Assembly: GCA_903861015.1 (NCBI GenBank)
Contig: CAIOSL010000043.1
Location: 1-17,074 of the forward strand
Source: an uncultured bacterium
GTDB taxonomy: Bacteria; Patescibacteriota; Saccharimonadia; Saccharimonadales; Saccharimonadaceae
DNA: 17,074 nucleotides
Reading direction: 5' to 3'
Numbering within the stretch: position 1 is the stretch's first letter; every line of letters starts with the position of its first letter. Shown in pieces: positions 125-17,074 of this stretch. The notes under the pieces are model-generated. The model saw only the letters and a program-made list of their open reading frames with translations, was not told the DNA's origin and did no database searches. The position numbers and the translations under genes are program-made.

Positions 125-340
125 GTGATCAATAAAGACATAATTCAAACCATTCGCGACAAAGAAATGGACCGCAAAGACTTCTTGAAATACAGCGGTC
201 TGTTTTTGCTTAGTATCGTTGGTTTAAAGACGATCATATCCCTGTTGACCCAGATGGACACCAGCAAACCCGTCACACTTCAACAACCAAAAGTCGAGGC
301 ATCGGGTCGCGGTTTTGGTGGTGGCAAGTACGGAGCCTAG
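125..340 (+). CDS. Small membrane-anchored protein with Tat-like RKDFLK signal motif
   Basis: I know of no named family for this 71-aa protein. I chose the GTG at 125 because AGGGG (112-116) sits eight bases upstream, while the ATG at 80 falls inside the predicted -10 box. An ATG at 167 (starting MDRKDFLK) is a second option and would put the signal at the very N-terminus. Residues 17-22 read RKDFLK, close to the twin-arginine consensus (RRxFLK) but with Arg-Lys. A hydrophobic stretch of about 17 residues follows (24-40), then a short polar segment and a Gly-rich tail ending GRGFGGGKYGA. This looks like a Tat signal or an N-terminal anchor with a small exposed tail. It is first in a tight run of genes: the next start is 3 bases after its stop, and that gene's ribosome site lies in this gene's last codons, so translation is probably coupled. 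Tat dependence is inference. Confidence 0.7.
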   Translation: MINKDIIQTIRDKEMDRKDFLKYSGLFLLSIVGLKTIISLLTQMDTSKPVTLQQPKVEASGRGFGGGKYGA

Positions 341-343
341 CCG

Positions 344-1042
344 ATGACGCAACAACGCTTACCGGTTGTTAACGGCGATGATGGCGCTTGGGGGGATATA
401 TTAAACCAGTTTTTGGCTAAAGAGCACTACGATACTGGCGTGGATAACGCGACCAATGGTGGTCATAAAAAAATAACGATTCGGCCGGGTACGACAGCGT
501 CTGGTACGGCACCGCTCAAATTTACATCTGGTGCGCTGATGGCGGCGCCAGAGGCCGGTGCGGTCGAGTTTTTGACCGACAAATTATATTTTACCCAAAG
601 TACCGGCAACGTTCGTAATACGATCGCTACGTACGACGATAGTTCGGGTGCTGCTGGTGATATTTATTATCGCAGTACGGCCGGGGTATTTACGCGCTTG
701 CCAATTGGTGACTCTAACCAGGTGTTGACGGCCTCGGGCAGTGGTTTGCCGGTTTGGGCAGTGCCGCCATCACGCAGCCGCTTGCTGATCGACCTGATGT
801 TTAACGATGCCTACGCCACGTCATATACCGAGTTGACAAATGATGTCTATGGCAACCCGTCCGAGGTGGGCGTTTGGGAAAATAGTTCCAAAGCAGTTAA
901 GTTGTTTACTAAAAACATTTATTATACCGGCGAAAATATTTCGGAAGTGGTCGTGACCAATAACTTAACCGGCGAAACTCTGACCACTTACATCTCGTAC
1001 TCTGGTGATGACATAACCCTAACCAAGGTCTATACTAGTTAG
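344..1042 (+). CDS. Phage-tail-type structural/adhesin protein, 232 aa
   Basis: GGAG at 332-335 lies eight bases before the ATG. The N-terminus (residues about 5-28) carries the pattern LPVVNGDDGAWGDILNQFL. This resembles the 'P-x-x-GGD-x-x-WG-x-x-LN-x-F' opening of many tail-fibre and tail-collar proteins. Residues about 45-95 (GTAPLKFTSG, PEAGAVEF, then LYFT) match a linker common in phage and metagenomic tail proteins, as I remember it. The C-terminal 80 residues are beta-rich and end in a paired-strand segment (ISEVVVTNNLTGETLTTYIS). There is no signal peptide and no membrane segment. It is the second gene of the operon, between the small anchor protein and a 47-aa protein. A tail-fibre tip, chaperone-like adaptor or trimeric adhesin are all possible. 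The tail-like assignment is by motif memory only. Confidence 0.75.
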   Translation: MTQQRLPVVNGDDGAWGDILNQFLAKEHYDTGVDNATNGGHKKITIRPGTTASGTAPLKFTSGALMAAPEAGAVEFLTDKLYFTQSTGNVRNTIATYDDSSGAAGDIYYRSTAGVFTRLPIGDSNQVLTASGSGLPVWAVPPSRSRLLIDLMFNDAYATSYTELTNDVYGNPSEVGVWENSSKAVKLFTKNIYYTGENISEVVVTNNLTGETLTTYISYSGDDITLTKVYTS

Positions 1043-1046
1043 TATT

Positions 1047-1190
1047 ATGCTGCAGTTTGTATCTGAAAAACCCAAAGACGGCAAAACCTATACACTGTAT
1101 CTGGATGTATCACGCTTGAAGTATGTCTTGGATATCGACGGCACCAAAAGTGACATCACCAAAGAAGAGTGGTTAAAGTTATGGCAATAA
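1047..1190 (+). CDS. Small charged protein, 47 aa, unknown function
   Basis: This short frame runs from ATG at 1047 to TAA at 1190, filling almost all of the gap between two long genes. It starts 4 bases after the upstream stop and ends 26 bases before the next start. The product begins MLQFVSEKPKDGKTYTLYLD and ends KEEWLKLWQ. It has a predicted strand-rich first half (TYTLYLD, KYVLDID), a mixed-charge middle and a Trp-containing amphipathic end. It has no signal or membrane segment. I do not recognise a family. The tight spacing and same strand argue that it is real, perhaps a small tail accessory or assembly factor. No strong ribosome site is visible, so coupling to the upstream gene is likely. 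Confidence 0.6.
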   Translation: MLQFVSEKPKDGKTYTLYLDVSRLKYVLDIDGTKSDITKEEWLKLWQ

Positions 1191-1216
1191 AACATATCAT
1201 AATCAGGGTATAACCA

Positions 1217-3799
1217 ATGTCATTCAGCTCTACCGGCAGCACAATTACGCAGACTGGTACCGATACTAGCTTGTCGGGTCTGACTGGTGTGTCCGGTATC
1301 AATGTCACCGACTATGGCCACTACAAACGTTACGAATTAAACGGTGGTGTTGATCTGATTATTAACGGCACGCTGACGATTGCTGGTGGCTCGCTGGGTG
1401 CTATTGGCGAACAGCTGATGATTCAGCCGTCGGGTTATGCCAAAAACACCATCAAAGTTAACGGCACGTTGACTATTGGTATTGATCAAGACCCGGTCTT
1501 GCAGCCAGACAATTACTTTGTGCCGGCCATTTGGCAGTCGGGGATATTTATTGGTGGGTCTAACGAAAGCACCGGCACGACCAACGATGGCGCTGGTACT
1601 TCGCCAACGATGTCGACCGTTTGGGTGGCCTCGGGGGCGACTTTTCGGATGTATGGCCAAAGCATGTTACTGACCGGTGCGTTCGCTAGCAGCGCCTCGG
1701 CCACCGAGCTAACGATTGTTGATTCGACGCTGCGCAACAGCTTTATGCAGCTTAATACGATTACGACGTTTGACGGCGTCAAATACCAAAAGATGAACAC
1801 CTCTGGCACGACTGACGGCGGTGGTATTGAATTAATTGCGCCATCTGGTGTGACAATCAACAACATGGCGATGCGGGGCACCAGCACAACTGCCTCGATG
1901 TTCAACTTTAATGCGGTTACGCCAATCAGTGCCGTCTATTCGGTTTATGGCGTGCCGTCACTGCCGATTGGTAATTTGGTCGGCAGCGGGCGCACGGATA
2001 CCTTTGATAATGCCCCTCTAATTAACTTCTATAACTGCGAGGATGGATCGGGCGGCAGCAACAGTTACGAGCTAACGGTCGATGCGCCGCGTTATGGTAT
2101 GGCTAATATCTATCAACAGATTGCTTATACCGTCAAAACCAGTGCCGGCGTAGCGATTCAGTACGCCTTAATACGACTGACTGGCAAGTACGGCTCGACG
2201 GTTTATACGGCCACAACCGATTCGGCTGGGTCAAGCGGTGTGATGAATATCTTGCTGGCCTATATGTACCGCAACGACAATACCGGCGCCAAGACATATT
2301 ATTGTAATAGTAACAACAGCAATGATGACTTTACACACCGAATTTATTCGTATTCTCACAACATTGGTTTGATGCCTAATATTGTTTTGAAAGGACTTAA
2401 TCCGGTAGCTTACCCATGGACGTTGTACGCTGACGCCGGTGTCAGTCGAACCGTTTCGGCCGCCGCCGCTTTGACGTCGATTGCTACCCTAAGTGACCTA
2501 TATGATGTCGCTAAATACTGGAAGATACAATCGGCCAACGCCGACTACCCGACCATCGATTCGCTTTTGGCGCTCAAAGATGGTGAGATTGTCGATTTGG
2601 GGGCGCAAAATATTGTTATTGACCCCAGTGCTTCGTCGGCCTTGTCGGTCAATAAATCCACCAATACGATTACGATCAAATCAACCGTCTTGGCGGTTGA
2701 CAGCAAGTTTAACACCCTCAAAACCAGCGGTACAATTAGCTTTCTAGGTGGGTCATCGTCGCCGTCCAAGATGAAGGGGACACTGATTTTGGCAACACCT
2801 GGTGTTATCGGCATTACGCTCGACAACATAACCCTCAATTTTGCAACGGCTGGCAATTACGACTTACGTACCTCGACTATTACTGGTACGCTGTCGCTGG
2901 TCAACAGCAGTGGTGGCGCGGTCACGGTCGACCTGGTACCGGGCCGAACTTTTGCCAATATTGGTCCAAGTATTACGGTAACATCGTCCATTGCCGTGAC
3001 GGTGACGGTTAATAATATTATTGCCGGCAGCCGTATTCAGGTTTACGATACATCTAACAACGTCGAACTTTGGAACGAAATCGTGCCGACGACGACATTC
3101 TCCAAGACCTATTCATACCTTAATAACATCGATGCTCGGGTTAGGTTGATGTATATTAACGGGGCAACCACGGCCTATAAGTGGTACAAGGCGACGGGCC
3201 TTGTCACGGCCTCGGGCTTTTCGATGAATGCCGCCCAGGAATTTAACAAGGTTTATACCGACAACAGCGTCGACGGGTCGACGGTGACCGAATGTTCGAT
3301 CAGTACCGATGGATTGGATATTTATATCGATGACCCCGACAATATCACGACGGGCCAGCGGATCTACAACTGGTACCAATATTATTTGTTTACGGCGACC
3401 GGTCTGGCGACTACTGACAGCCTGATAACCGCTATCGACTCGACCCACTTTATTTTTGACAATTCGATGCATATCAAAAACCTCGACACCGTTAACCCAC
3501 TCAATATTACTGGCGCCAACTTGACCCCGGTTAGCGGGCCAGCGACTAACGTTTTTGACCTGTCCAATGGGGCGTCAATGGCGGTTAATTACGAGCGCGT
3601 CGAGGGCTTTACCTTTGCCGGCGGTACAGGGTTATCGGTCGAGGAGCATAACTGGCTCAGCGACGCCAATACCAAGATTAATACTATGGCGCACGATGTT
3701 TGGGATATCCAAACAACCAACCTGACAACATCAGGCTCGATCGGCGAACACTTCCGCAAGAAGGTTTTGACGTCGAACAAATACATCCAATTGCGTTAA
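1217..3799 (+). CDS. Large beta-rich tail-fibre-like protein with shared C-terminal module, 860 aa
   Basis: The ATG at 1217 is preceded by AGGG (about 1206-1209). The protein is almost entirely Ser/Thr/Gly/Asn-rich beta sequence. Residues about 40-260 read like a right-handed beta-solenoid (GVDLIINGTLTIAGG, then IKVNGTLTIG). A middle region about 300-350 looks like an Ig/CNA-type fold (VKTSAGVAIQYALIRLTG). Residues about 415-480 (SIATLSDLYDVAKYW) match a module repeated in the giant protein downstream. Residues 527-860 are the C-terminal module shared with that protein. It contains IYNWYQYYLFTATG, an EEHNWL motif and a VWD..TTNLTTSGSIGEH motif. The last resembles the 'VWDE...H...GT.GE' ends of siphophage tail proteins. 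No signal peptide or membrane helix is seen, so any route out of the cell would have to be non-Sec (phage-like particle, lysis or an unknown exporter). A role as receptor-binding fibre or adhesin is inference. Confidence 0.8.
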   Translation: MSFSSTGSTITQTGTDTSLSGLTGVSGINVTDYGHYKRYELNGGVDLIINGTLTIAGGSLGAIGEQLMIQPSGYAKNTIKVNGTLTIGIDQDPVLQPDNYFVPAIWQSGIFIGGSNESTGTTNDGAGTSPTMSTVWVASGATFRMYGQSMLLTGAFASSASATELTIVDSTLRNSFMQLNTITTFDGVKYQKMNTSGTTDGGGIELIAPSGVTINNMAMRGTSTTASMFNFNAVTPISAVYSVYGVPSLPIGNLVGSGRTDTFDNAPLINFYNCEDGSGGSNSYELTVDAPRYGMANIYQQIAYTVKTSAGVAIQYALIRLTGKYGSTVYTATTDSAGSSGVMNILLAYMYRNDNTGAKTYYCNSNNSNDDFTHRIYSYSHNIGLMPNIVLKGLNPVAYPWTLYADAGVSRTVSAAAALTSIATLSDLYDVAKYWKIQSANADYPTIDSLLALKDGEIVDLGAQNIVIDPSASSALSVNKSTNTITIKSTVLAVDSKFNTLKTSGTISFLGGSSSPSKMKGTLILATPGVIGITLDNITLNFATAGNYDLRTSTITGTLSLVNSSGGAVTVDLVPGRTFANIGPSITVTSSIAVTVTVNNIIAGSRIQVYDTSNNVELWNEIVPTTTFSKTYSYLNNIDARVRLMYINGATTAYKWYKATGLVTASGFSMNAAQEFNKVYTDNSVDGSTVTECSISTDGLDIYIDDPDNITTGQRIYNWYQYYLFTATGLATTDSLITAIDSTHFIFDNSMHIKNLDTVNPLNITGANLTPVSGPATNVFDLSNGASMAVNYERVEGFTFAGGTGLSVEEHNWLSDANTKINTMAHDVWDIQTTNLTTSGSIGEHFRKKVLTSNKYIQLR
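2795..3799 (+). repeat. C-terminal module copy A (334 codons plus stop)
   Basis: This is the first of two copies of a module that ends both large proteins; the other copy is at 11157-12161. Both are exactly 1005 bases counting the stop codon and align with no gap at protein level. By manual count about three quarters of the last 189 residues are identical, including long invariant runs such as RIYNWYQYYLFTATG, IDSTHFIFDNS and KNLDTVNPLNITGAN. The DNA has drifted further than the protein, mostly at third positions, which suggests an old duplication kept by selection. Confidence 0.9.
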
Positions 3800-3819
3800 A
3801 GTTAAATACGGTTTTTAGA

Positions 3820-3849
3820 GTGACACAAGATTATTATTTGTGTTAAAAT
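3820..3849 (+). promoter_or_regulatory. Putative promoter for the giant gene
   Basis: GTGACA (3820-3825, five of six to the -35 consensus), an 18-base spacer and TAAAAT (3844-3849) with an upstream TG (3841-3842, extended -10 form) are visible in the 121-base gap between the two large genes. The predicted start near 3856 leaves a leader of about 65 bases. No close ribosome site precedes the ATG at 3921. An inverted repeat lies inside the spacer (listed separately). Confidence 0.45.
3823..3843. promoter_or_regulatory. Inverted repeat overlapping the promoter (possible operator)
   Basis: ACACAA (3823-3828) and TTGTGT (3838-3843) form a six-base dyad with a nine-base AT-rich centre, placed exactly between and over the -35 and -10 boxes. 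No T-run follows, so it does not look like a terminator. A repressor site is possible but unproven; a six-base dyad in AT-rich DNA can occur by chance. Confidence 0.3.
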
Positions 3850-3920
3850 TAGATCACTATGGTGGCATGCAAAGGGTAGCAAGATAACAAACTAGATAAG
3901 AAGCAGTCTGACAGTTATTT

Positions 3921-6900
3921 ATGGCAACACAAACAATCAGTACAAACGTCAATGTCGATGAAATAGGCTACTCTTTTATTGGCACGATTTCGGCATCGGC
4001 GTCGTGCTATCAGTCTGAATACGGCTATAACACCTACAATGCACGTACTATGTCAGCAACCCTAAGCTGGACCGGCGTGGCATGTGGTGATGGACACGCA
4101 GTTTTTATAGCCAGCGGTTCGCAGGTTAATAACGTAATGCATGACGGCAAGGTTAACCCGGTCGCCAATGGTAATTTAATGCCGACTGCATCCAGCTGGA
4201 CCGACATTGCTTATGGTGGTGGTACTTATGTAGCGGTCGCTACGGTTAGCGCAATCGCTTCGACGATGAGCTTAACGCGCGGCGAACTGTGGACCAACCA
4301 GGCTTTGCCGGTATCGACAACCTGGGCTTCGATCGCTGCGGGAGTGCCGTCGGGTACCGGTGTTTGGACATTTGTGGCGGTTACGTCATCGACCGCTAAC
4401 TTTGCTTACTCAACCAATCGCGGCGTCAGCTGGACGGGCGGTACTCTGCCGTCGTCGGGCAGCTGGAAGGTTAGGTTCGGTAACGGCCGGTTTTTGGCAA
4501 TACGCAACGGTAACGCCACGGCACTGTACAGTACCGATGGTATTAACTGGAATACCTCAACCTTGCCGTCGGCCGCCAGCTGGACCGACCTGGCCTACAA
4601 TAATAGTATCTGGGTGGCCGTGGCTAACACTAACGCCTCGGCCTATTCAACGGACAACGGCGCCAGTTGGACGGCCTCGACAATGCCAGCTTCGGGTTCG
4701 TGGAAGATTGCTGCCGGCAAGACGATCGAGGGTTACCAGATGTTTGTGGCGATTGCCTCCAGTACCACCAGTGGTGCCTATTCGACCAACGGCTATACTT
4801 GGTATACGTTTGCGGCGCCTAACGGGGCGATTTTGCGTTTGGTTTGGCTGCCATTATCATGGTCGTCACTAGATGCCTTGATTATTAACAATAACGCGAC
4901 AGTGACGGTCAATACCAACCAGGTCAAGTCGTGGAGCGCGATCACGATCAACTCGGGCACGCTCAATATAGTCAACTCATCGACATCGACGGCTAATCGC
5001 TTTTTGATGGGAGGCAACTACAGTACTAGCCAGCGGTCGATCACAACCTTTGGTTTGGGCACGGTTAATATGGCCGGGGCTCGTATTCAGATTGGTACCG
5101 GTACTGGTGTGGCCGGACAGACTTTTACAGTACCATATACCGACTACGTGGCTTCTATCTGGGTCGAGACTGGCAATGGTACTAATACCTACGAACAATG
5201 GCTGAATGTCACCAAGGCTTATGGTCTGCATCCACCGATTTGGCGCAGGGACGGTTTGTATAACGTGGCATCGGGCAAACATGGCAATTATTTTGTTCAG
5301 GGTGCTAATGCGGTATCGACCTATGGCGGCTTTACGATATCTGGCGGTGTGACATATGGCACCAAGTTTGTCTACGTAACATCAACCGCCGGTGTCTTGC
5401 CGGGCGCATCAATCTCGGGCACTGGTATCGTCTGGAACTCGGTCGTCGAACAAGTAGTTAGTTCGACAGTATTACGATTGCATACTCCAACCACAGTCTC
5501 GGCTGGTCCAAACACCTATACAGTCTTTAACCCGATGGCCGCCCAGATGAACTCGACGCTGACTGTTGGCGATGGTACGCACGGCAATGTGGTGCCCAGT
5601 GGCGCCAGGGTGTGGATACCAAATATTATGATGACCGATGTCTTGCCGTGTATGGCGACATACAGCAGTACTATATCGTATTACGGCGGTATTACACTGA
5701 CTAACGCTGGCAAGTTCTATGCCGATACTTGTTTGTTTGACTTGATTTACGGCAACTTTAACCAGGCAACACTGGTGTCGCTAAATTACGTAGGTGTGGT
5801 TTATATGTTCCAGATAGCCAAGGTAACGTCGCTGTCGATTACTAACTTTGGTATATCGAACAGTCCCGCTAGGCATTGGTACCCGGCCAACTCAATTGGG
5901 TGGAATTTCGTCTATTTTTCAAGTCAGTCCTATGAATATATATACTTAACCTATTGCCCTAATGCGCGTTTGGATAATATTCACATTGTAAATTACGGTG
6001 GATCAGGGCTGATTGGGTCGGCTAACGCTAGCGATACTGTCGCCGGTATGGTAACTTTTGCAAACGGTTGTGATGGTGCGATCTGTACTAACTTACGTCA
6101 AACGACACTTGCCGCCCGTGGTGGTGGCCCAGCCGTAGCGGCTCACTTTTCGTCTAACATATTATTTAATAATATCGAAAGTTATGGTAACGGTGGACAG
6201 TTGGGGGCGATTTCTTACGGATCGAACATTACGGTCTCGAACGTCAAGTTTAAACCCGGTTATTTAAACGAGTATATGGGCGCTAATTACTCAAACTCGT
6301 ATTTGAATCGTATTCTGCGGGATGCTTCAAATAATATATTGACTACGGGTAAGTACTATATCAAAGTCCGTAACTTTTATGACTACGGTAGTTTCTATTG
6401 GGTCTCGGGACATTACCTGGATATGCCAGTGGTGTTGTTCCAGGTTTGGTCCGATGCGCAGCGCGGAAGAATGGTGTACGGCGGCGCGTATCCCAACGGT
6501 GTTGTGAATACGGTCGTTATATCTTTTCTTAACTTGGCTCCAATCGCATCGCAGACACCAGCTATAGAAATATACCGCTCAACAACGACTGGCTTTTCGA
6601 CGCGTGATGTCACAACGCTTTTGACTAGACAGAACTACAACGTTAACGCCTACGCTGATAACGGCGCCGGTTCGCTAACGGCGCCGATTAACGGCACAAC
6701 TTATTATTATGTGGTGCGAAAGTACTTTGGTGGCTTTAGCTTGGCAAGCTGTACGGTCAGCTCGGGCACACCCAACCTAACAACTACCTCTAACCTTAAC
6801 GCCTTTAGCACGGTTGGTAACGTTAGGGGTGACGTGGGAACCAACGTTTTGTATTTTGCGGGCCTTTATGACTATTCGGGTGGTTTCGGTGCACTGACAC

Positions 6901-9900
6901 CAGGCATGCCGGTAACGGCAACCGGTATCCCGGGCGGCACAACTATAACCAGCATATCGGATGACGGAATGACGTGCGTTATATCCAACTACCTAACAGC
7001 CAACTTGCTGGGGGTAAACGTATCCTACGGCTTTACCGCCGGCATGGTGGTTTACCATGCCAACCTGCCACCCGATACGCGCATATTAACAATTAACTCT
7101 AACACCAGCGCCACTTTAACTAAAAACGCTACATCCTTGATTTCGGCGGCTACGGTCGTTTTGCTGAGCGGTTTTTATGAAACACCAGAATTTGAAGCGA
7201 CGCCGTATACTCTCAACGCTAGTACTAACCTGTTGTTGCAGTCATATACTTTAGATAACGCCTCGTGGACCAAAACCAATGCCTATGTGACGCCTAATAT
7301 GCGCTACACAACTTCAAACGATAGCCTTATCGCTATAAGTGGTTCGACATCATACGCTACGGCGGATCGTATTTATATTCCCGCAGCCTCGGGGACTTTA
7401 TCTCAGACGGTTGCTACTTCGATTGGCCTAAGCTACACTTTCACTATATGGATAGTGCAGGAGGTATCGGTATTCCAGCCTGATAACAACGTAACTGGCC
7501 AGATTCAACTAGGCACGGCTACTCAGACATTTACAGGCTCGTCTAATGCGCAGAAGATCTCGGTAGCTTTTACCGCCACGGCCACTACAACAACGGCGAC
7601 CATACAGGTTAACTCAAACAGTGCGATTTATACTGTAACCAATACCACCGTTACTACCAACTACATAACGGTTAACTCTACTACAGGCCTTATACCTGGT
7701 CAGATGGTAACTTTTAGCGGTACTACATTCGGAAATATTATAGGTGCAGGTACCGTCTACTACGTCAAACAAATCATTAGCTTAACTCAGTTTACGATTT
7801 CGGCGTCATATGTAGTGGATATGACTGCTGCGGCCGTCTTTGCCTTAACGACAGCCTCTGGAACAATGACATGTGTGATTGTTTATTACTTGTGTGTCGG
7901 TAATGCTCAAGTGGAGTTAACCTCTACTGCTTATGGTTTGCCGATCGCTACAACCACCACGACGTATACGTTCACACCAATAAATGTCACCAGCGCTGTG
8001 TCGTTTGTAAAGGATCAGTATACCGGCACTCAGATTGGCTTCAACAACCCGTCGACCACTAACATAACTAGGTATTGGGAATTGTTTTTGGGTACGACAT
8101 CTGGCTTTACGCCATCAGAGAGCAACATGATTATGACTAACTATGGCACTAACGCCAATGCCTTGTATGCTTATTCGGGCACTAATATGGTTTATGATAC
8201 CGTTACCCAAGATCAGCCATGGGGTATGGGTGGTTATGGCTTGTCGGTCTTGTATGCGGCATCGTCGGCCCAGGTATTGTTTCGCAACATAACCATACCG
8301 ATTAACGGGCGTAAGTTTAGTATTCTAGACTGTTCGTCGGCTGCGCCAATCGTCACCATGGCCAACTGTCAATTCGATTATTACCAAAACTATATCAGCT
8401 CACTCTACCCAATTGTTACGGCCAACTCGACCAAATCTTTGACCATCAAGAACACACGCAGTAATCTGTATGATATACCGCACTCAATTACTACATTACA
8501 GACTGCGATTAGGGGATTGTTTGGCGGAAAATCCACATCTACAAACAATACATACGACCCACGCTGGACATTGGGCAGCTCTCAGGATGGCGACCAGGCT
8601 AGCTATACAGCCATGTACGACGACAACTTCCACGAATTATACACCGGTACGACGACTGGTATTATGCGGCTTAACTTTACCGAGTCGTTGCTGGCGTCCA
8701 AACCCTATACTGTCGTGTCAGGCAACCCAAGGTTTGACGATACCGGCAAGTTGTATTTTTACAACCCTGGTGATTCGATTGAATTCATTTGGGATCACAA
8801 AATATTGGGCGTGTCGGGCTTTCAAAATGCCATGCCGCGCATGAACGGTGTTGATTTGGGGCCAGATCGCACAACTAACTTCTGTTTGGTGACAGAATAC
8901 GCTGTTGATACCGGTTCGGGCTATGGGTCTTACAAGACATTGACCAAGGCCAACCTAATAACCGAGACAGTTTCGGCCTCGACGGGCTTTAAGTTTAAAA
9001 TACGTTTTACGGCCTATGCTGGTATGAAGATCACCACGCAGACTTCATTATTTGTGCTGAACGAAACTATTAACGGTTTGACGTCTGGTGCCACGGCGCG
9101 CGTTATTGCCATCGAGAATAATAACCTCAGTTCGAACAGTAGCTCGATTAACGTCGATACGATATCGGGCGTATTTGCGCCGGGCGAAACGATTAGGTCC
9201 AGCGTTACGACACGCGGTACCAACAGTGCTACCAACGGTTTTGCCCTCTATCCATCATTTACGTCATATATCAACGCCCTAGAGATCTATACCAACGTCG
9301 ATCAGACGGTCATGTACCCGGTTTTCTCGGCCACCTTTACGATCACCCAGCTAGTATATGGCAGTTATATCGGTATTTTGAACGATGGTAGCGCCCTTGT
9401 ATCTTACGGTACATCGACCTTAACTTATGCCTATACATACGACTATTACGCCACCTATACCTATTCGTACGTTGTGCGCAAACCAGGTTACGGCGAAGTT
9501 CGCAGTACTTGGCTGACATTGTCGACCGATCAGTCGACTTTAGCTATTCAAACGTTATTCCGTAACGTATTGGATGCCAGCGGCTATACCGGCATAGCAA
9601 TTAACGGTGTTGCCAAGACGATAACCGTAACGTCCAGCCATAGCCTGCTAGAGCTGTACGACTACGCCCAGTGGTGGTCCTGCCAGATGACCAACATGAC
9701 CTACGATGTGCCGATGACAATATCGGTCGACCAAAAGAATATTTATTTGACAACTGGTTGGACGTTGATCGTCAGTGGTGCCGGGGTAATTGTATCTGAT
9801 ACCACCCGGTCCTTAGCCGGTACGATCTCGACCGTTAGTGGCGGCTTGTACTTGGATATTACCGGCGCCGTTTGGACGGCCAGCGGCAATACGTATTATG

Positions 9901-12161
9901 CGTCGTTGTTTACGCATATTATTAACGACGGCACCAACCCGTTGGTTGGTGTGGCGGTAGCGTATTTTGACAGCGCCAAGGTCAATCGTACGTATAACAC
10001 ATCACTAGCTAGCGTCTCGGCTCTGATAACCAATTCGTCGGGCCAGGTGACTGGTTATGCGGTCTACAAAATTAACTCGACAACCTATACTGGGCACTTT
10101 GTCCGCGCCCGAACCTACGGCTTCTTGACCGGTACCGGATCGCGAACAGTCAACGGTGCCCAGATCAATGACTCGATTACAGTGTCAGTGGACAGTTTCG
10201 TTTCAGATTCGTCATCTACTGTCAGTACGTTTACGGGTATTGCTATGGATTACAGCCTAAAAACGATAACTGTTACATCGTCACACACGCTGTTTCATCT
10301 GTACGAATTTATTCGCTACTCTGACGCCCTGACCGCCAACTTTAGCCAACCCGACACGGTTTCGACGATCAACGGTATTGACTATTTGTTGACTGCCAAC
10401 TGGTCGCTGCAGGTCAGCGGCACGTCGGTAGCATTGTCGGATACAACCAAGAGTGTTGTCTTCCAGGGGACTGGTGTGCTGACCATATCGAGCGGTGGAT
10501 TGTACGACGACAAGAACGGTGCAGTCTGGAATGTTAGTGGTACGTATTATTACGGCAAGCATATTTATCGTAACGTCAAGGCAATTACCGGCGGCGCCAA
10601 TATACAGTATGCGATCGTAGCCTGTTTTGATAGTGGTGGCGTTGACCGAACATACAGCACGTCGCTGATCAACAGCGCTTTGTCGACCGATGGTAGTGGT
10701 AACGCCGAAGGCTTCTTTGTTTACAAGGTTGGGTCGAGTACCCTTATCGTCAACGAATATATCGGTAAGTATGGCTACCAGTGGTCAACCATACCTGTTT
10801 CGCCAACCGGCGCCCCAACTGGTACTGCGGTGGCCTACGAAGTTATCCGAATGGTTACAGATCAATATGCGGTCTTGTCGCAGTCGGCGGCGCTGGCGCT
10901 GCCAGGTATCGTCACCGACCACACTGCCAAAACGCTAGACATGGGCAGCCGTACTTATTCCGAGGTCCAAGACAACCTGCGGGCGCGCCAGGCCAGCACT
11001 GCCAATATCGAGACGGGCCTCAAGGGTTACGTGTCGTACTATTTGGCTGGGACCATCCTTGGTTATGACGGCACATTCTATCAGGCAAAGAGCGATTGGG
11101 AGTATTGGGGCGGTGTTGGTGGCGGTATCTTTAAGGGTGGCGAATATCGTTTGAGCACACCAGGCGTGATCAATATGGTATTTGATAGCGTAACTCTAGA
11201 CTTCGCAACGGCCGGCACCTACGATTTGCGTGGATCAACCATCACCGGTACCTTGACGCTGGTTAATACCAGTGGTGGCAGCGTAACGGTCAAGTTGGTG
11301 CCGGGTCGATCATACACCAACCTGGGGCCAAACATTACGGTTACGTCCTCGTTATCTGTCAGCGTGGTTGTTAATAATATAATCGCCGGCAGTCGTATTC
11401 AAATCTACGACACCTCCAACAGTGTCGAGTTGTGGAACGAGATTGTAACCGGCACGTCATTTACTGGCCCATATGCTTACACTACAAACGTTAATATCCG
11501 CATCCGTATAATGTATGTTAACGGTGCGTCGGTGGCCTACAAATGGTACAAAGCGACTGGTACTATTACGGCAGTCGGCTTTATGATGAACGCCGGCCAA
11601 GAGGCCAACACGGTCTATACCGATAACTATGTCGATGGGTCACTGGTGACAGAATGTTCGATCGGCGTTGATGGTATCAGTGTCTATGTTGACGATCCCG
11701 ATAATATTACGTCGGCGCAGCGTATCTATAACTGGTATCAGTACTATCTGTTTACGGCGACCGGTATCGCAACCGGCGACAACTTGATCGTGGCGATCGA
11801 CTCGACTCACTTTATCTTTGATAACTCGGTCAAGATCAAAAACCTCGATACTGTCAATCCACTCAACATTACCGGTGCCAACATTACACCAGTAACTGGT
11901 GTAGCAACCAATGTCTTTGACTTGTCGAACGGTGCGTCGATTGCGGTTAACTACGAGCGTGTCGAGGGCTTTAACTACGCTGGTGGGTCGGGCCTGTCAG
12001 TCGACGAACATAACTGGCTAAGCGCGGTTAATACCAACGTTATCAATATGCCAACCGATGTTTGGGATGTGGCCAAGGCTGATCTGCTGACGACTGGATC
12101 GATCGGTGAGCATACCCGCAAGCGAATCTTGACAGTTAATAATTACCTAGGCCTGAAGTAG
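3921..12161 (+). CDS. Giant mosaic tail-fibre-like adhesin, 2746 aa
   Basis: One uninterrupted frame of 8.2 kb. From the N-terminus:
- residues about 45-310: Asp-box propeller repeats (S-T-x-x-G-x-x-W at 164, 204, 243 and 288);
- about 310-640: beta-solenoid-like;
- about 879-938: FN3-like (IEIYRSTTTGFS, YYYVVRKYFGG);
- 1103-1345: carbohydrate-binding-like module typical of tail proteins, opening NLLLQSYTLDNASWTK and closing GNAQVELTSTAYGLPIATTTT;
- about 1237-1318: a domain nested in it (TTNYITVNSTTGLIPGQMVTFSG);
- 1890-2314: two tandem copies of an about 210-aa module;
- 2413-2746: C-terminal module shared with the 860-aa protein.
The protein has no signal peptide, no sortase motif and no membrane helix, which fits a phage-type fibre better than a classical wall-anchored adhesin. 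It has its own promoter and a strong terminator. Carbohydrate binding or host/partner-cell recognition is inferred from the domain types. I see no clear catalytic motif, and the propeller could be merely structural. Confidence 0.85.
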   Translation: MATQTISTNVNVDEIGYSFIGTISASASCYQSEYGYNTYNARTMSATLSWTGVACGDGHAVFIASGSQVNNVMHDGKVNPVANGNLMPTASSWTDIAYGGGTYVAVATVSAIASTMSLTRGELWTNQALPVSTTWASIAAGVPSGTGVWTFVAVTSSTANFAYSTNRGVSWTGGTLPSSGSWKVRFGNGRFLAIRNGNATALYSTDGINWNTSTLPSAASWTDLAYNNSIWVAVANTNASAYSTDNGASWTASTMPASGSWKIAAGKTIEGYQMFVAIASSTTSGAYSTNGYTWYTFAAPNGAILRLVWLPLSWSSLDALIINNNATVTVNTNQVKSWSAITINSGTLNIVNSSTSTANRFLMGGNYSTSQRSITTFGLGTVNMAGARIQIGTGTGVAGQTFTVPYTDYVASIWVETGNGTNTYEQWLNVTKAYGLHPPIWRRDGLYNVASGKHGNYFVQGANAVSTYGGFTISGGVTYGTKFVYVTSTAGVLPGASISGTGIVWNSVVEQVVSSTVLRLHTPTTVSAGPNTYTVFNPMAAQMNSTLTVGDGTHGNVVPSGARVWIPNIMMTDVLPCMATYSSTISYYGGITLTNAGKFYADTCLFDLIYGNFNQATLVSLNYVGVVYMFQIAKVTSLSITNFGISNSPARHWYPANSIGWNFVYFSSQSYEYIYLTYCPNARLDNIHIVNYGGSGLIGSANASDTVAGMVTFANGCDGAICTNLRQTTLAARGGGPAVAAHFSSNILFNNIESYGNGGQLGAISYGSNITVSNVKFKPGYLNEYMGANYSNSYLNRILRDASNNILTTGKYYIKVRNFYDYGSFYWVSGHYLDMPVVLFQVWSDAQRGRMVYGGAYPNGVVNTVVISFLNLAPIASQTPAIEIYRSTTTGFSTRDVTTLLTRQNYNVNAYADNGAGSLTAPINGTTYYYVVRKYFGGFSLASCTVSSGTPNLTTTSNLNAFSTVGNVRGDVGTNVLYFAGLYDYSGGFGALTPGMPVTATGIPGGTTITSISDDGMTCVISNYLTANLLGVNVSYGFTAGMVVYHANLPPDTRILTINSNTSATLTKNATSLISAATVVLLSGFYETPEFEATPYTLNASTNLLLQSYTLDNASWTKTNAYVTPNMRYTTSNDSLIAISGSTSYATADRIYIPAASGTLSQTVATSIGLSYTFTIWIVQEVSVFQPDNNVTGQIQLGTATQTFTGSSNAQKISVAFTATATTTTATIQVNSNSAIYTVTNTTVTTNYITVNSTTGLIPGQMVTFSGTTFGNIIGAGTVYYVKQIISLTQFTISASYVVDMTAAAVFALTTASGTMTCVIVYYLCVGNAQVELTSTAYGLPIATTTTTYTFTPINVTSAVSFVKDQYTGTQIGFNNPSTTNITRYWELFLGTTSGFTPSESNMIMTNYGTNANALYAYSGTNMVYDTVTQDQPWGMGGYGLSVLYAASSAQVLFRNITIPINGRKFSILDCSSAAPIVTMANCQFDYYQNYISSLYPIVTANSTKSLTIKNTRSNLYDIPHSITTLQTAIRGLFGGKSTSTNNTYDPRWTLGSSQDGDQASYTAMYDDNFHELYTGTTTGIMRLNFTESLLASKPYTVVSGNPRFDDTGKLYFYNPGDSIEFIWDHKILGVSGFQNAMPRMNGVDLGPDRTTNFCLVTEYAVDTGSGYGSYKTLTKANLITETVSASTGFKFKIRFTAYAGMKITTQTSLFVLNETINGLTSGATARVIAIENNNLSSNSSSINVDTISGVFAPGETIRSSVTTRGTNSATNGFALYPSFTSYINALEIYTNVDQTVMYPVFSATFTITQLVYGSYIGILNDGSALVSYGTSTLTYAYTYDYYATYTYSYVVRKPGYGEVRSTWLTLSTDQSTLAIQTLFRNVLDASGYTGIAINGVAKTITVTSSHSLLELYDYAQWWSCQMTNMTYDVPMTISVDQKNIYLTTGWTLIVSGAGVIVSDTTRSLAGTISTVSGGLYLDITGAVWTASGNTYYASLFTHIINDGTNPLVGVAVAYFDSAKVNRTYNTSLASVSALITNSSGQVTGYAVYKINSTTYTGHFVRARTYGFLTGTGSRTVNGAQINDSITVSVDSFVSDSSSTVSTFTGIAMDYSLKTITVTSSHTLFHLYEFIRYSDALTANFSQPDTVSTINGIDYLLTANWSLQVSGTSVALSDTTKSVVFQGTGVLTISSGGLYDDKNGAVWNVSGTYYYGKHIYRNVKAITGGANIQYAIVACFDSGGVDRTYSTSLINSALSTDGSGNAEGFFVYKVGSSTLIVNEYIGKYGYQWSTIPVSPTGAPTGTAVAYEVIRMVTDQYAVLSQSAALALPGIVTDHTAKTLDMGSRTYSEVQDNLRARQASTANIETGLKGYVSYYLAGTILGYDGTFYQAKSDWEYWGGVGGGIFKGGEYRLSTPGVINMVFDSVTLDFATAGTYDLRGSTITGTLTLVNTSGGSVTVKLVPGRSYTNLGPNITVTSSLSVSVVVNNIIAGSRIQIYDTSNSVELWNEIVTGTSFTGPYAYTTNVNIRIRIMYVNGASVAYKWYKATGTITAVGFMMNAGQEANTVYTDNYVDGSLVTECSIGVDGISVYVDDPDNITSAQRIYNWYQYYLFTATGIATGDNLIVAIDSTHFIFDNSVKIKNLDTVNPLNITGANITPVTGVATNVFDLSNGASIAVNYERVEGFNYAGGSGLSVDEHNWLSAVNTNVINMPTDVWDVAKADLLTTGSIGEHTRKRILTVNNYLGLK
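4410..4802 (+). other. Asp-box (BNR) propeller region inside the giant gene
   Basis: Four repeats of about 40-45 residues each carry an Asp-box-type turn followed by Trp: STNRGVSW (residue 164), STDGINW (204), STDNGASW (243) and STNGYTW (288). Less regular upstream blades (SWTDIAYGGGTYVAVA and TWASIAAG, then FVAV) suggest the propeller starts near residue 45. Asp-boxes are known from sialidases and other propellers, but they are structural rather than catalytic. No sialidase Arg triad or FRIP motif was recognised, so binding is more likely than cleavage. Confidence 0.7.
9588..10859 (+). repeat. Two tandem about 210-aa modules inside the giant gene
   Basis: Copy 1 spans 9588-10232 (residues 1890-2104) and copy 2 spans about 10233-10859 (from residue 2105). 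Both open TGIA followed by KTITVTSSH and an LYEF/LYDY segment. Both continue with a W-x-L-x-VSG strand, an SDTT(R/K)S turn, SGGLY, GAVW, then a second half with YFDS/CFDS, DRTY/NRTY, TSL and VYK. They are clearly homologous but well diverged. A related single copy lies in the 860-aa protein (residues about 415-480, LSDLYDVAKYW). The module is unnamed to me; similar sequence occurs in tail proteins as far as I recall. Confidence 0.75.
11157..12161 (+). repeat. C-terminal module copy B (334 codons plus stop)
   Basis: This is the second copy of the module ending both large proteins; its partner is at 2795-3799 and is of identical length. Variable positions cluster near the very end (the segment around SAVNTNVINMPTDVWD and the last 13 residues), while the core is nearly invariant. 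This pattern would suit a conserved trimerisation or attachment end carrying different N-terminal heads. Confidence 0.9.
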
Positions 12162-12180: not shown

Positions 12181-12213
12181 TAAAAACACCGCGATTTAAA
12201 CGCGGTGTTTTTA
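12181..12213. terminator. Bidirectional intrinsic terminator between the giant gene and tatA
   Basis: A perfect 13-base-pair stem (12181-12193 with 12201-12213) has a seven-base loop. It has a CACCGCG/CGCGGTG core flanked by an A-run on the left and a T-run on the right, so it can end transcription in both directions. It lies 19 bases after the giant gene's stop and 12 bases beyond the tatA stop, exactly where two convergent genes need it. Confidence 0.92.
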
Positions 12214-12225
12214 GTGAAATCAAGA

Positions 12226-12390
12226 TTATTTTTTCGTGTCTTTGTCGTCGTTGATGTCGCCGCTAAAACCCTTGCGGATCTCTTTGCCGGCTTGGCCGAT
12301 GCCGCGTGCTAGTTCTGGCAACTTTTTGCCACCAACCATCAGCACCAAAACAACCGCCACGATTAGTAAGATTATCTCAGTTTTACCCAT
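12226..12390 (-). CDS. tatA: Twin-arginine translocase subunit TatA, 54 aa
   Basis: The protein begins MGKTEIILLIVAVVLVLMVG (one short membrane helix). A hinge and amphipathic helix follow (GGKKLPELARGIGQAGKEIR), then an acidic/basic end (DINDDKDTKK). The KKLPELARGIG block is the hallmark of the TatA/TatE family, which oligomerises in the membrane to let folded Tat substrates pass. The usual Phe-Gly before the helix is Val-Gly here. Glu at position 5 places a charge at the N-terminal membrane edge, as in some TatA/TatB proteins. At 54 aa it is shorter than most TatA (often 60-90). It is transcribed alone from the minus strand with its own promoter, and no tatC is in view. Its neighbourhood of exported proteins is mostly Sec-type, apart from the Tat-like motif in the gene at 125-340. 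A leader of about 28 bases contains a purine-rich stretch before the ATG. Confidence 0.9.
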   Translation of the reverse strand: MGKTEIILLIVAVVLVLMVGGKKLPELARGIGQAGKEIRKGFSGDINDDKDTKK

Positions 12391-13983: not shown

Positions 13984-15006
13984 ATGACAATAACCAAAAT
14001 TAGATCGTCGTTGGCACGGGCCTTGCACGTCGTTTTTGCTGTTGTATTATTGATAACCTATTATCCAAACGTAGCTTCGGCAGCTCAGATTACCGCCCGC
14101 AAAGTTGTCATCGGCAGCTCGGTGGCTTCGGCCAGCACCACGTATGCCTTTACTTTTACGGTACCATCCGCCACGATCATCAAATCGGTCAGTATGACTG
14201 CGTGTACGACAGCCAGCAACGCCTGTACTACCCCAACTGGCTTTTCATCTGGCACATCTACGCTTTCGGTTCAGCCAGTTAACCTGGGTGATGCAACCGG
14301 TTGGACGGTTGACACGTCTGATGCTGGTGCACTCCGGATAACCAAATCCGGCAATACGACTTTGCCTTCGGGTGCCCAAACCGTTACTTTTGGCAGCGTG
14401 ACTAATCCTTCGGCTACAAATGCAACTTTCTTTTTGCGAATTGCTACCTATTCCGACGCCGCCTGGTCGGTACCAATCGATAACGGTGTTGTCGCAGCCT
14501 CGACCGCTGGTCAAGTTACTGTTACAGCAGTCGTCGACGAAGCTTTGATCTTTACTCTGGCCGATACAGCGGTTAACCTGGGGACACTGACTACCAGTAC
14601 GACAGGCTCGGGCACATCGACAATGACCGTTGCTACCAACGCCCTTTCTGGCTACACAGTTACCTACAGTGGCGGCACACTAGAATCAGCCGGCAACACC
14701 ATACCAGCTATCTCTTCGCCAACCGCCTCGACTCCGAACAGCCGTCAGTTTGGTCTTAACCTGCGCGCCAATACTACACCTGCGGTCGGCACCAACGTAA
14801 CTGGTGCGGGTACTGGTACTCCGGCCACCAACTATAATACCGTTGATCAATTTATGTTTAATACTGCTGGCGATGTGATCGCCACCGCCACCGGCCCAAC
14901 CAACAGCAACGTTTATACCACCAGTTATATCGCAAACGTCGACAGCTTGGCACCTCCGGGTACCTATACGACAGTTATAACCTACGTAGCAACTGCTAAC
15001 TTTTAA
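13984..15006 (+). CDS. Secreted two-domain WxL-like surface protein, 340 aa
   Basis: A signal peptide (basic start, hydrophobic core about 15-27, likely cut near ASA-AQ at 33-34) precedes two beta domains. The first (about 35-175) has a paired-cysteine loop (TACTTASNACTTP, Cys 74 and Cys 81, possibly a disulfide). Its features TTYAFTFTV, then AQTVTFGSVTNPS and TFFLRIATYSD, recall secreted proteins common in Patescibacteria, as far as I remember. The second (about 183-340) begins VDEALIFTLAD and ends PPGTYTTVITYVATANF, and is the WxL-like fold shared with the protein at 13383-13919. Neither a membrane anchor nor a sortase motif is present, so it must be held by a partner. The DUF916-like gene starting two bases after its stop is the natural candidate, and the tight TAA-CT-ATG spacing implies co-transcription and coupled translation. 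Function as an envelope or adhesin subunit is inference. Confidence 0.75.
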   Translation: MTITKIRSSLARALHVVFAVVLLITYYPNVASAAQITARKVVIGSSVASASTTYAFTFTVPSATIIKSVSMTACTTASNACTTPTGFSSGTSTLSVQPVNLGDATGWTVDTSDAGALRITKSGNTTLPSGAQTVTFGSVTNPSATNATFFLRIATYSDAAWSVPIDNGVVAASTAGQVTVTAVVDEALIFTLADTAVNLGTLTTSTTGSGTSTMTVATNALSGYTVTYSGGTLESAGNTIPAISSPTASTPNSRQFGLNLRANTTPAVGTNVTGAGTGTPATNYNTVDQFMFNTAGDVIATATGPTNSNVYTTSYIANVDSLAPPGTYTTVITYVATANF

Positions 15007-15008
15007 CT

Positions 15009-16097
15009 ATGGAATCTCGCAAGCTACCCCGAATCTTATTGGGCCTAGCTGTTTTTGTGCTTGTCGGCCTTAGCCCTGTGACGGTTCATGCCGTCGACAG
15101 CAGCAGCGAAAAAGGCATTGGTATCAGCCCGTCGCTGGTCGAACTAAACGCCACCCGCGGCAATGTATACGAGGTCACCCTAAAAATTACCAACGTTACT
15201 CCAACCGATTTGGTTTACGAATCATCGACCAATGACTTTACATCGGCTGACGAATCCGGATCGCCACACGTAGTCTTAAACAGTACCACTCCCAGCAGCG
15301 CCTCGATAATCAAATGGGTGGCACCAATCCCAAAGTTTACATTAAAATCACACCAAGAAAAGGTGATTACGGCGCAAATTATCGTCCCAGCCAATGCCGA
15401 ACCAGGCGGTCATTATGGCGTGATTCGGTTTTCGGGGCAACCACCCGAGCTTAAAACCAGTGGTGTTGGCCTGTCATTCAGTGCCGGACTGCTGCTGCTG
15501 ATTAGGGTTGACGGCAATATAGCCGAAAAAGCCAGCTTGGTGTCGCTGTTTAGTGCAGCTGGCGCTAATGAATCATGGTTTTTTGAGAGCTCACCAATTA
15601 ATTTGGTGACCAGAATCCAAAATCAGGGTAACGTTCACGTCAAGCCAACCGGTAGTATCGAAGTTCGCGATATGTTTGGTAACTTGGTGGCGACGTTGCC
15701 GGTAAATGCCGACAAAAATAATATCTTGCCTGACAGTATTCGGCGGTTCGAGTCCAAACTAGACGGAATCTGGATGATGGGGCGCTATACGGCCACGGTT
15801 ATGCTGGGTTATGGTACTAACGGCCAGGTCATTAGCGGCACGACATCGTTTTGGGTGGTACCGTATCGATTAATCCTGGCGATTCTGGCGGTTATTGGCC
15901 TGATAGTGTTTATTCTAAATCGCATCGCTAAAGTGTATAATAAACGTGTAGTTGAGCGCGTAAAACGCGAGATCGAATTAGCTAACAAACAACAACAAGA
16001 AGAAAGAGCAATTCATGAGCTCACCCCAGAAATCAAAGCAGTTGAAACCAAACCAATCGAAGTCAAAAAAGATCACAAAAAGATCAAAATCCAGTAG
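15009..16097 (+). CDS. DUF916/WxLIP-like membrane protein with long charged tail, 362 aa
   Basis: A signal peptide (1-28, cut at VHA-VDS) precedes a domain that opens GIGISPSLVELNATRGNVYEV and carries WVAP (103-106) and EPGGHYGVIRFSG (131-143). It is paralogous to the protein at 12493-13386. A second beta domain (about 195-280) includes ILPDSIRRF and GRYTATVMLGYG, which resemble the DUF3324 half of WxLIP proteins. One membrane helix (about 286-304) follows. Unlike its paralogue, it then has a cytoplasmic tail of nearly 60 residues (305-362) rich in Lys, Arg, Glu and Gln. The tail looks helical or coiled-coil (RVVERVKREIELANKQQQEE) and ends in a lysine-rich stretch. The last 83 bases overlap the start of the next gene in another frame. 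There is no ribosome site; it probably relies on coupling to the gene two bases upstream. It likely anchors the secreted WxL-like protein and links it to something inside the cell. Confidence 0.78.
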   Translation: MESRKLPRILLGLAVFVLVGLSPVTVHAVDSSSEKGIGISPSLVELNATRGNVYEVTLKITNVTPTDLVYESSTNDFTSADESGSPHVVLNSTTPSSASIIKWVAPIPKFTLKSHQEKVITAQIIVPANAEPGGHYGVIRFSGQPPELKTSGVGLSFSAGLLLLIRVDGNIAEKASLVSLFSAAGANESWFFESSPINLVTRIQNQGNVHVKPTGSIEVRDMFGNLVATLPVNADKNNILPDSIRRFESKLDGIWMMGRYTATVMLGYGTNGQVISGTTSFWVVPYRLILAILAVIGLIVFILNRIAKVYNKRVVERVKREIELANKQQQEERAIHELTPEIKAVETKPIEVKKDHKKIKIQ

Positions 16098-17074
16098 TCT
16101 TCGACATGCGGTAACGACTGTTCACGGCAAGCAGTCGCGCTTGCGACATTTGCGATTGGTTAATCACCAACACACCGGACGTCTGATCCATATTCGACAC
16201 ACTTCGCACTTATCTTTGATTGTTATTTTGGTTATAGTCGGGTTATTTTTGCTGCTTTCTAGTGGTCTGATAGCGCGCGCTACTTCGGCCAGCGGTCAGG
16301 TCTATGTTGGGGCGGTTGTTGCCGGCCCGGCGCCGACTGTCGGTGCTGTAATTACCAGCCCGGTTGATGGTCAACGAATAACCAACCAGAACAAGGTTGA
16401 TATTGGCGGTACTTGTGCTGTCGATAGCTTTGTGGTTGTTAGTGATAACGGATCAGCCATTGGTTCGACGGCCTGTACGGATGCCGGAGTATTCAAATTG
16501 ACAGCCCAACTGTGGGTTGGATCAAATAGTATCAAAGCTTTAAATTACGACAACCTTAATCAACCTGGTCCTGATACGCCGGCGGTTAATTTGACTGTTG
16601 TCAGTGGGGCTGGTAGCGAAATTGCTTCCAGCGAGGCGACCGTGCCCTTTGTGCCACTTAATCCATCAATTATCGCTGGGCTGGGCACAACAATTCAAGA
16701 TTGTAGCGATTACCAAACAGCCGGCTTGACAACTGGCGGCAATCCGCATATCGCCATCACTTGCGTACCACGCATTATCATACCGAACTCCAAACAGTCG
16801 CTAGGTATTATGGTTTGGGGCGGGACTCCACCTTATGCCATCAGCAGCGATTGGGGTAATAGCTCGAATACTTTGTTAAGCGTTGCCTCGTCGACCTATA
16901 AGGTATTGGATTTTAATTACGCCACGGCCGGCAAATACCAATTGACGGTTAGCCTGACCGATTCGACCGGCAAAGTCGCCACGGTTCAATCGGCTGTCCA
17001 AGCCAGCGGTCAGATAGCCAAGGCAGCTGGCAGCACAACTGACAACAGCTTGAATACTTCGTGGTTTTTTGAAC
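16015..17074 (+). CDS. Membrane-anchored Ig/PKD-like surface protein (5' part, runs off the window)
   Basis: The frame is open from ATG at 16015 to the window end (353 codons, no stop). The first about 63 residues are strongly basic (Lys/Ser then Arg/His), followed by one membrane helix (about 66-86, LSLIVILVIVGLFLLLSSGL) and an extracellular part. This is an N-in, C-out topology. Residues about 108-195 look like a bacterial Ig domain (ITSPVDGQRITNQNKVDIGG, then GVFKLTAQLWVGSNSIKA). Residues about 255-330 look like a PKD-type domain (GTPPYAISSDWG, then ATAGKYQLTVSLTDSTGK). Cysteines at 134, 153, 230 and 250 may form disulfides. The ATG lies within the previous gene, making an 83-base overlap; AAGAAAGAG just before it is a weak ribosome site. 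TTG codons near 16141 would avoid the overlap but still keep the helix, so the true start is uncertain. Confidence 0.72.
   Translation, partial: MSSPQKSKQLKPNQSKSKKITKRSKSSSLRHAVTTVHGKQSRLRHLRLVNHQHTGRLIHIRHTSHLSLIVILVIVGLFLLLSSGLIARATSASGQVYVGAVVAGPAPTVGAVITSPVDGQRITNQNKVDIGGTCAVDSFVVVSDNGSAIGSTACTDAGVFKLTAQLWVGSNSIKALNYDNLNQPGPDTPAVNLTVVSGAGSEIASSEATVPFVPLNPSIIAGLGTTIQDCSDYQTAGLTTGGNPHIAITCVPRIIIPNSKQSLGIMVWGGTPPYAISSDWGNSSNTLLSVASSTYKVLDFNYATAGKYQLTVSLTDSTGKVATVQSAVQASGQIAKAAGSTTDNSLNTSWFFE

Follow-up and report, generated by a model that had tools for sequence, protein, structure and literature searches.

A candidate fibre-display locus headed by a small Tat-signal-like protein in Saccharimonadia

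Results

The window analysed here, a stretch of 17,074 bases, is the entire contig G000:C43; the draft genome to which it belongs comprises 728 kb on 97 contigs. As given in the preliminary description, four packed genes and a giant gene are found, all on the plus strand: a leader gene encoding 71 amino acids (125–340, with a GTG start at 125 and its stop at 340), the gene of a 232-aa protein (344–1042), a 47-aa ORF with no assigned role (1047–1190), and the genes of two fibre-like proteins of 860 aa (1217–3799) and 2746 aa (3921–12161). The tail-type motifs named in that description are present in the translations, and the three fibre-like proteins indeed lack a signal-like N-terminus: the most hydrophobic stretch of 13 residues among their first 60 scores 0.22, 1.38 and 1.13, compared with 2.30 for the leader and 2.71–3.25 for four secreted neighbours by the same measure. 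For the five genes from the leader to the 2746-aa protein, no Pfam or PHROGs match was obtained up to an E value of 0.1. Rfam gave no match at the gathering threshold.

The giant gene converges with a tatA gene on the minus strand (12226–12390), and a near-palindromic hairpin with T runs on both sides (12181–12213) lies between them. The tatA gene had been taken for a housekeeping gene; it is genuine (PF02416, E value 1.6e-8, 34.1 bits, cut-off 21), but it is a second copy, the other one being located beside tatC on contig G000:C23 of the same genome and 75% identical to it over 53 residues. Likewise, G023 carries two tatA genes (contig G023:C9), of which one adjoins tatC and the other follows the fibre genes. 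The remainder of the window is occupied by a cassette of secreted proteins: C1 (12493–13386, plus strand), which has a signal-like N-terminus (hydropathy 2.90) and is conserved in relatives; C2 (13383–13919, minus strand), the start of which was set by likeness to relatives; a Pam-type pilin (13984–15006, plus strand; NF058581, 159.4 bits, cut-off 55); C4 (15009–16097, plus strand), a conserved secreted or transmembrane protein with weak matches to fn3_5 and WxLIP_PGBD, both below the cut-off; and a PamR-like protein (16015–17073, plus strand), which is partial, being cut by the contig end, and the first listed start of which overlaps C4, so that its start is provisional. Of the Pam models, only that of the pilin C-terminal domain exceeds its cut-off; PamR (NF058578, 145.6 bits, cut-off 300) and PamT (107.8, cut-off 240) do not.

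The leader is a single-TM protein with a Tat-signal-like N-terminus, in which the motif DRKDFLK is found (170–190, plus strand), and a C-terminal YG tail, FGGGKYG (314–334, plus strand), that follows the motif [FY]G.[GS].[FY]G. Relatives of the leader were found in 16 of 28 genus genomes, counting that of the window, and in 78 of 294 genomes of the class. In the genus, the core consists of E-M-D-R, then K/R-x-F-L-K-Y, a hydrophobic stretch and a tail like GFGSGKYGA. Among 97 distinct leader-like proteins of the fetched loci, R-[K/R]-x-F is present in 86, with K at the second position in 75 and R in 11 (the pattern itself demanded the first R), and the triplet before x-F is D/S/T-R-K in 74. A single lysine replacement in the twin-arginine pair can be tolerated. 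The motif of Tat substrates, that is, an SRRxFLK-type sequence before a moderately hydrophobic stretch, is present in the leader as a variant, because the second position is mostly K; SRRxFLK is the consensus given in a passage of PMC13323110. The cut-off of the curated Tat signal model TIGR01409 was not exceeded in any of the 28 genus genomes, that of the window included. Of 92 short leaders, 84 carry a YG-type tail by a looser pattern; among the eight that miss it, one is cut by the end of its stretch. The leader is matched over nearly its whole length by NF038009, which carries the NCBIfam name TatB_1, twin-arginine translocation system-associated protein, with scores of 45.8 bits in the window and 31.0 bits in G003 that do not reach the cut-off of 100.

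Three genomes, G213, G114 and G249, also contain five longer ORFs that begin with an N-terminus homologous to that of the leader (for example, MTRREFL...SHAATTP), four of them 333–420 aa long and one cut at a contig end. In this position the N-termini resemble signal peptides. Secreted-looking fusions of this kind are seen in L103 (3197–4438), L104 (2986–4245), L105 (5813–7075, minus strand) and L106 (3332–4333), and the three fusion proteins that were scanned had no Pfam match.

In the 232-aa protein, residues 1–45 (344–478) form the domain that begins with WG-x-x-LN, hereafter the WG domain, and the remainder is fibre-like; relatives of this protein are present in 15 of the 28 genus genomes, its own included. 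The WG motif starts within the first seven residues, counted from the furthest start codon, in 60 of 63 distinct proteins matched by the pattern in the fetched loci. Directly behind a leader-like frame are 27 of these 63, and the others stand apart. Conversely, in 22 of 29 leader loci, which come from a named collection with many of the same genomes as the genus set, a WG protein is encoded by the first ORF that begins no more than 400 nt away and is 90 aa or longer. Two leader-WG pairs follow tatC in G487, and G173, a class genome of about 1.2 Mb, has 20 WG-domain matches on at least seven contigs. The cargo behind the WG domain is diverse: among 42 scanned WG proteins, there are matches to a pectate-lyase-like family (7), beta-helix (4), collagen (3), CBM5/12 (3) and GDSL lipase (2), and several of the same 42 match tail-fibre or tail-spike families of PHROGs. 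The structural model of the 232-aa protein contains a helix at residues 15–27 and is beta-rich thereafter; because it is of low confidence (mean pLDDT 67.4, pTM 0.39) and gave no match in BFVD or PDB at E values up to 0.001, no fold is claimed. A PDB chain that was matched by WG profile A3 at an E value of 0.029 is regarded as a chance hit, and no match to the WG domain was found in plasmids. In L087 (NZ_PCOY01000038.1, a contig bearing the actinobacterial label Microbacterium sp. MYb62), a leader and a WG frame also occur together with a YG protein that contains LPPNTG, which might be explained by epibiont contamination or by transfer.

The 860-aa and 2746-aa proteins have neither a WG domain nor a signal peptide. 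Their last 336 residues constitute a shared C-terminal domain (2789–3796 and 11151–12158, plus strand) with 71% identity between the two. The C-terminal part has a relative in Curvibacter phage PCA1, a hypothetical protein adjoining an annotated tail fiber protein, and parts of the shared domain have relatives in three IMG/VR contigs. Pieces of the two proteins had no relative in the bacterial loci fetched at that stage, Curvibacter phage being the only source of matches, and the 860-aa protein had no PDB match by sequence. By analogy with phage tails, in which fibre parts bind one another, both proteins may bind the WG protein.

The preliminary description had suggested either the fibre end of a prophage or tailocin lying upstream or a domesticated set of fibres with a small membrane-anchored protein at its head, and had pointed out that no phage genes are in view. 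The latter is true of the window and uninformative about the upstream side, because the window is a complete contig; relatives were therefore used instead. The same setting was found in G023, G014, G025 and G005, with the order housekeeping-type genes, tatC-tatA on the other strand, leader, WG gene, variable fibre-like genes and secreted cassette. In these four relatives the locus is bordered by tilS-ftsH-murJ-lepA-tatC-tatA on one side and by a Pam-pilus-type cassette on the other. The products TilS, FtsH, MurJ and LepA of G014 are over the NCBIfam cut-off, and TatC is just under it and over the cut-off of PF00902. In G023, G025 and G005, whose listings extend beyond the cassette, it is followed by genes that we take from their motifs to be hrcA/grpE/ackA/dnaK-like. 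The ORF lists of the flanks, which extend about 12–14 kb upstream and were judged by eye apart from the five G014 genes assigned by NCBIfam, contain no head, portal, terminase, tube, sheath or baseplate gene. The prophage or tailocin suggestion was thus not borne out, the leader being preceded by housekeeping-type genes in the four relatives, and the reading as a domesticated set fits the gene order. The fibre genes vary between genomes behind the leader and the WG protein. In G016 and G003, leader, WG protein and cassette occupy another site, separated from tatC by about 46 and 50 kb, respectively. In viral contigs, 155 stretches matched the leader pattern and none was confirmed, and the family of the window's own WG protein has no member there. 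A WG frame in G012:C62 (10835–11053) stops after RLPLVNG and is not followed by a pilus cassette; it perhaps represents a decaying locus.

TatC, the leader and the WG domain were found to occur together at several taxonomic levels. In the genus, TatC is present in 17 of the 28 genomes, and 15 have both TatC and the leader. In the class, TatC is over the cut-off in 81 of 294 genomes and the WG domain is present in 80, besides the 78 with a leader. Leader and TatC are both present in 78 genomes, the leader alone in none, TatC alone in 3 and neither in 213; the corresponding numbers are 77, 3 (WG only), 4 (TatC only) and 210 for WG and TatC, and 76, 4 (WG only), 2 (leader only) and 212 for WG and leader. 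The phi values of these pairs, uncorrected for relatedness, are 0.94–0.97, versus 0.28 for the control, Pam pilin and TatC; the pilin is over the cut-off in 106 of the 294 genomes, with both present in 47, pilin only in 59, TatC only in 34 and neither in 154. TatC without a leader was found in G024, in which the contig ends at tatC, in G019, in which a tatC frame with an odd start lies beside a sequence that by eye resembles a PamR remnant, and in G096, in which nothing accounts for it. WG without TatC was found in G163, G265 and G300, the WG gene of G265 encoding only 99 aa. In the phylum (211 genomes), TatC is over the cut-off in 17 genomes and WG is present in 10, all ten of which have TatC and the leader; two of the ten belong to classes outside Saccharimonadia. 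The remaining 7 genomes have TatC and neither leader nor WG, and thus Tat does not need the leader or the WG domain, but these accompany Tat. Weak leader matches in G357, G381 and G420 (E value about 1e-4, long frames, no TatC or WG) were left out of the ten, and TatC matches under the cut-off, seen in the class genomes G232, G044 and G052 and in G383 of the phylum sample, were not counted. All genome counts are uncorrected for relatedness, and the class and phylum samples overlap in genomes.

At the level of loci, TatC lies inside the fetched stretch in 19 of the 29 leader loci. Sixty further class stretches, chosen for a leader, for a fusion or fusion-like frame (five) or, in one instance, for TatC with no leader, comprise 46 with leader and TatC, 13 with a leader or fusion and no TatC, and 1 with TatC only. 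In several distant lineages, tatA, tatC and the leader are on one strand, with WG next in L085, L088, L090 (Levybacteria) and L092. According to a passage of PMC9166423, Saccharimonadia and two further classes were already known to have TatA and TatC. A statement in PMC6031116 calls one Saccharibacterium the only one with a complete Tat system, compared with the 81 class genomes with TatC counted here.

The WG domain was also found in viral contigs, at 10 loci, on 13 IMG/VR contigs after a second scan, and in six Streptomyces phage records, two of which (LuckySocke and BRock) were fetched. Neither leader nor TatC nor TatA is present in L196–L207. After merging of duplicates (L203 with L202, the re-finds L208–L217, and L219 with L196), 12 distinct viral loci remain. 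In 6 of these, a YG motif lies no further than 100 nt from the WG gene, versus a mean of 0.01 and a maximum of 1 in 500 residue shuffles; one of the six, L218, was detected in a scan that postdates the proposal of the pairing. The remaining six have no YG motif within 2.5 kb of the WG gene, and five other phage loci have no YG neighbour. In L205, a YG motif is found 3.7 kb upstream, beyond the counted range. In L202, L204 and L218, the upstream gene ends in a YG peptide (for example, YGRGTYGSSNYGEG), and in L200, L206 and L207 the peptide is near the start of the downstream gene. The YG protein of L207 is a minor tail protein (phrog_538, 8.5e-63); those of L202, L206 and L200 have no PHROG match, and that of L204 matches only families of unassigned function. 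A tape-measure gene is located upstream of WG in L207, and a tape-measure-like gene directly before it in L200. The tail of the leader has the same YG motif in the same place, just before WG. In L196 and L197 (LuckySocke and BRock), the WG proteins are encoded amid tRNA genes, with no annotated tail gene in the stretch and no YG neighbour.

The fetched Patescibacteria stretches, which overlap in part and total 1.83 Mb, contain the YG motif in 110 distinct proteins, classified by script as 70 leaders, 17 Sec-like proteins and 23 others. By eye, the same 110 comprise 71 leaders, 26 proteins with a signal-like stretch immediately before the motif, 7 small proteins with the motif close to the N-terminus and 6 others (e.g., DnaJ); the seven small proteins have no clear signal, and several contain a sortase-like PNTG stretch. 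In the window, the mature N-terminus of C2, PYGKGIYNANIPYG, is YG-like and fails the exact pattern, and relatives elsewhere match it directly after the signal peptide. YG peptides at or near the mature N-terminus of secreted or small proteins were also seen in L109, L117, L129, L136, L143, L157 and L161.

Discussion

The explanation that we favour is a joint one. The leader is probably a Tat-targeted membrane anchor, as predicted from its sequence, and its C-terminal YG peptide, once exported, would serve as a docking site. The 232-aa protein encoded next to it would be a domesticated phage-type fibre, the WG domain of which would dock on that peptide like a fibre on a phage tail tip, where the WG domain is proposed to hold the fibre on a YG peptide. 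The gene order, the near-perfect co-occurrence, the lack of signal-like N-termini, the phage-type cargo and the WG/YG neighbourhood in half of the viral loci are observed, whereas docking, Tat export, hitchhiking, the position at the surface and a role in host contact are inferred. Tat moves folded proteins and can carry partners that lack a signal, and passages of PMC4273604 describe HybO/HybC and PaoABC of E. coli as examples; WG fibres, being signal-less, would thus be folded in the cytoplasm before docking on the leader and crossing the membrane with it through TatAC. A YG peptide on a Tat-targeted anchor could in this way allow folded fibres to exit through Tat and be displayed, which we consider a reasonably likely outcome. 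The fibres would then stand on the surface, perhaps after transfer to YG-tagged secreted proteins like those encoded in the adjoining cassette, and might bind or trim glycans of the partner cell. More tentatively, and with somewhat less than even likelihood, the WG domain could be a portable N-terminal tag for export and docking: the YG peptide of a Tat-signal mini-protein would capture any folded protein bearing the tag and bring it to the cell surface. A joint of phage tail tips would then have become a route for protein display, used by up to 20 proteins per genome in the class, present also in two genomes of other classes of the phylum, and possibly passing fibres to secreted YG-tagged surface proteins. 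The locus as a whole would probably be a chromosomal fibre-display locus rather than a prophage. Several observations speak against this explanation: most leaders have K in place of the second arginine of the pair, TIGR01409 stays below its cut-off, the homologous NCBIfam family is named TatB_1 and so may denote a translocase part, and the leader does not always adjoin tatC. In addition, the 860-aa and 2746-aa proteins have neither WG domain nor signal peptide, the 2746-aa protein would be a very large load for Tat, WG proteins occur in some viruses without a leader or Tat, half of the 12 viral loci lack a nearby YG peptide, and three class genomes have WG and no TatC.

The leader might instead be a TatB-like part of the translocase, with WG proteins as ordinary cargo of lineages that retained Tat and a YG tail that serves Tat assembly. 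The family name of NF038009 and the presence of TatC in all 78 leader genomes of the class sample are in line with this, but we consider it unlikely, as leader copies head WG genes away from tatC (L110), two consecutive leader-WG pairs are present in G487, homologous N-termini are found on bigger, secreted-looking proteins, the YG tail is shared with the viral WG neighbours of L196–L207, which are devoid of TatA, TatC and leader, and seven phylum genomes have TatC and no leader. A still less probable alternative is that Tat only inserts the leader into the membrane, and that WG fibres dock on secreted YG surface proteins after lysis or release by another route. The YG motif behind a signal-like stretch, seen by eye in 26 proteins near the loci, would suit such a route; however, the WG domain should then be common in genomes lacking TatC, and it is present in only 3 of the 213 such genomes of the class.

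Co-occurrence could also arise from shared descent or from co-transfer of one island, and not from function. The genes are often neighbours and are patchily present inside the genus, as would be expected of an island, whereas many WG copies (as many as 20 in one genome) are located on different contigs or at a distance from the tat genes and nevertheless track TatC, and the same set is found in two genomes of other classes, which makes this explanation highly improbable. Least credible of all is the fibre end of a prophage or tailocin: the cargo and the C-terminal domains are of phage type and the upstream side of the window lies off the contig, but housekeeping-type genes precede the leader in four relatives, the position behind tatC-tatA is recurrent, and no leader was confirmed in the viral contigs scanned. 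Display of domesticated fibres by way of a Tat-targeted leader remains our preferred explanation.

For the choice and grip of host cells by epibiotic Patescibacteria, the locus provides a testable candidate set, composed of a small Tat system that is almost always accompanied by one small carrier in this class, the proposed WG/YG pair and changing phage-type fibres, the latter being candidate determinants of host range. Among open-licence PMC papers, none was found that connects fibres in Patescibacteria with Tat, with this leader or with the WG domain. If the proposed docking is true, it would represent a new adaptor logic for Tat, a short display tag of possible practical use, and a joint of the phage virion that is reused by a cell.

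Comparison with known systems

The cassette behind the fibre genes resembles the Pam pilus of CPR bacteria (NF058578/79/81) in that it contains a Pam pilin and a PamR-like protein; unlike the genes considered here, Pam pilins are also present in 59 class genomes without TatC. The type IV pili of Nanosynbacter lyticus are a surface structure that binds the host, and further close-range adhesins are expected in Saccharibacteria, as stated in a passage of PMC12206443; they are a different kind of filament, and the passage draws no link to fibres or Tat. The family NF038009 (TatB_1) matches nearly the whole leader, but at 45.8 bits against a cut-off of 100, and its name points to Tat and not to fibres. 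In addition, the topology of the leader is signal-anchor-like, unlike that of TatB.

The tail tip of siphophages offers a parallel for the gene pair itself, since in L207 the WG gene adjoins the gene of a YG-bearing minor tail protein; in contrast, the YG peptide of the locus is on a membrane anchor, and no virion genes were seen. With hitchhiker export by Tat, as described in the source cited above, the proposed mechanism would share the principle that a partner bearing a signal takes folded, signal-less ones through the translocase. In the described cases, however, the carrier is an enzyme subunit, whereas the carrier proposed here is a 71-aa anchor that ends in a short peptide tail; its load would consist of phage-type fibres, often several per genome.
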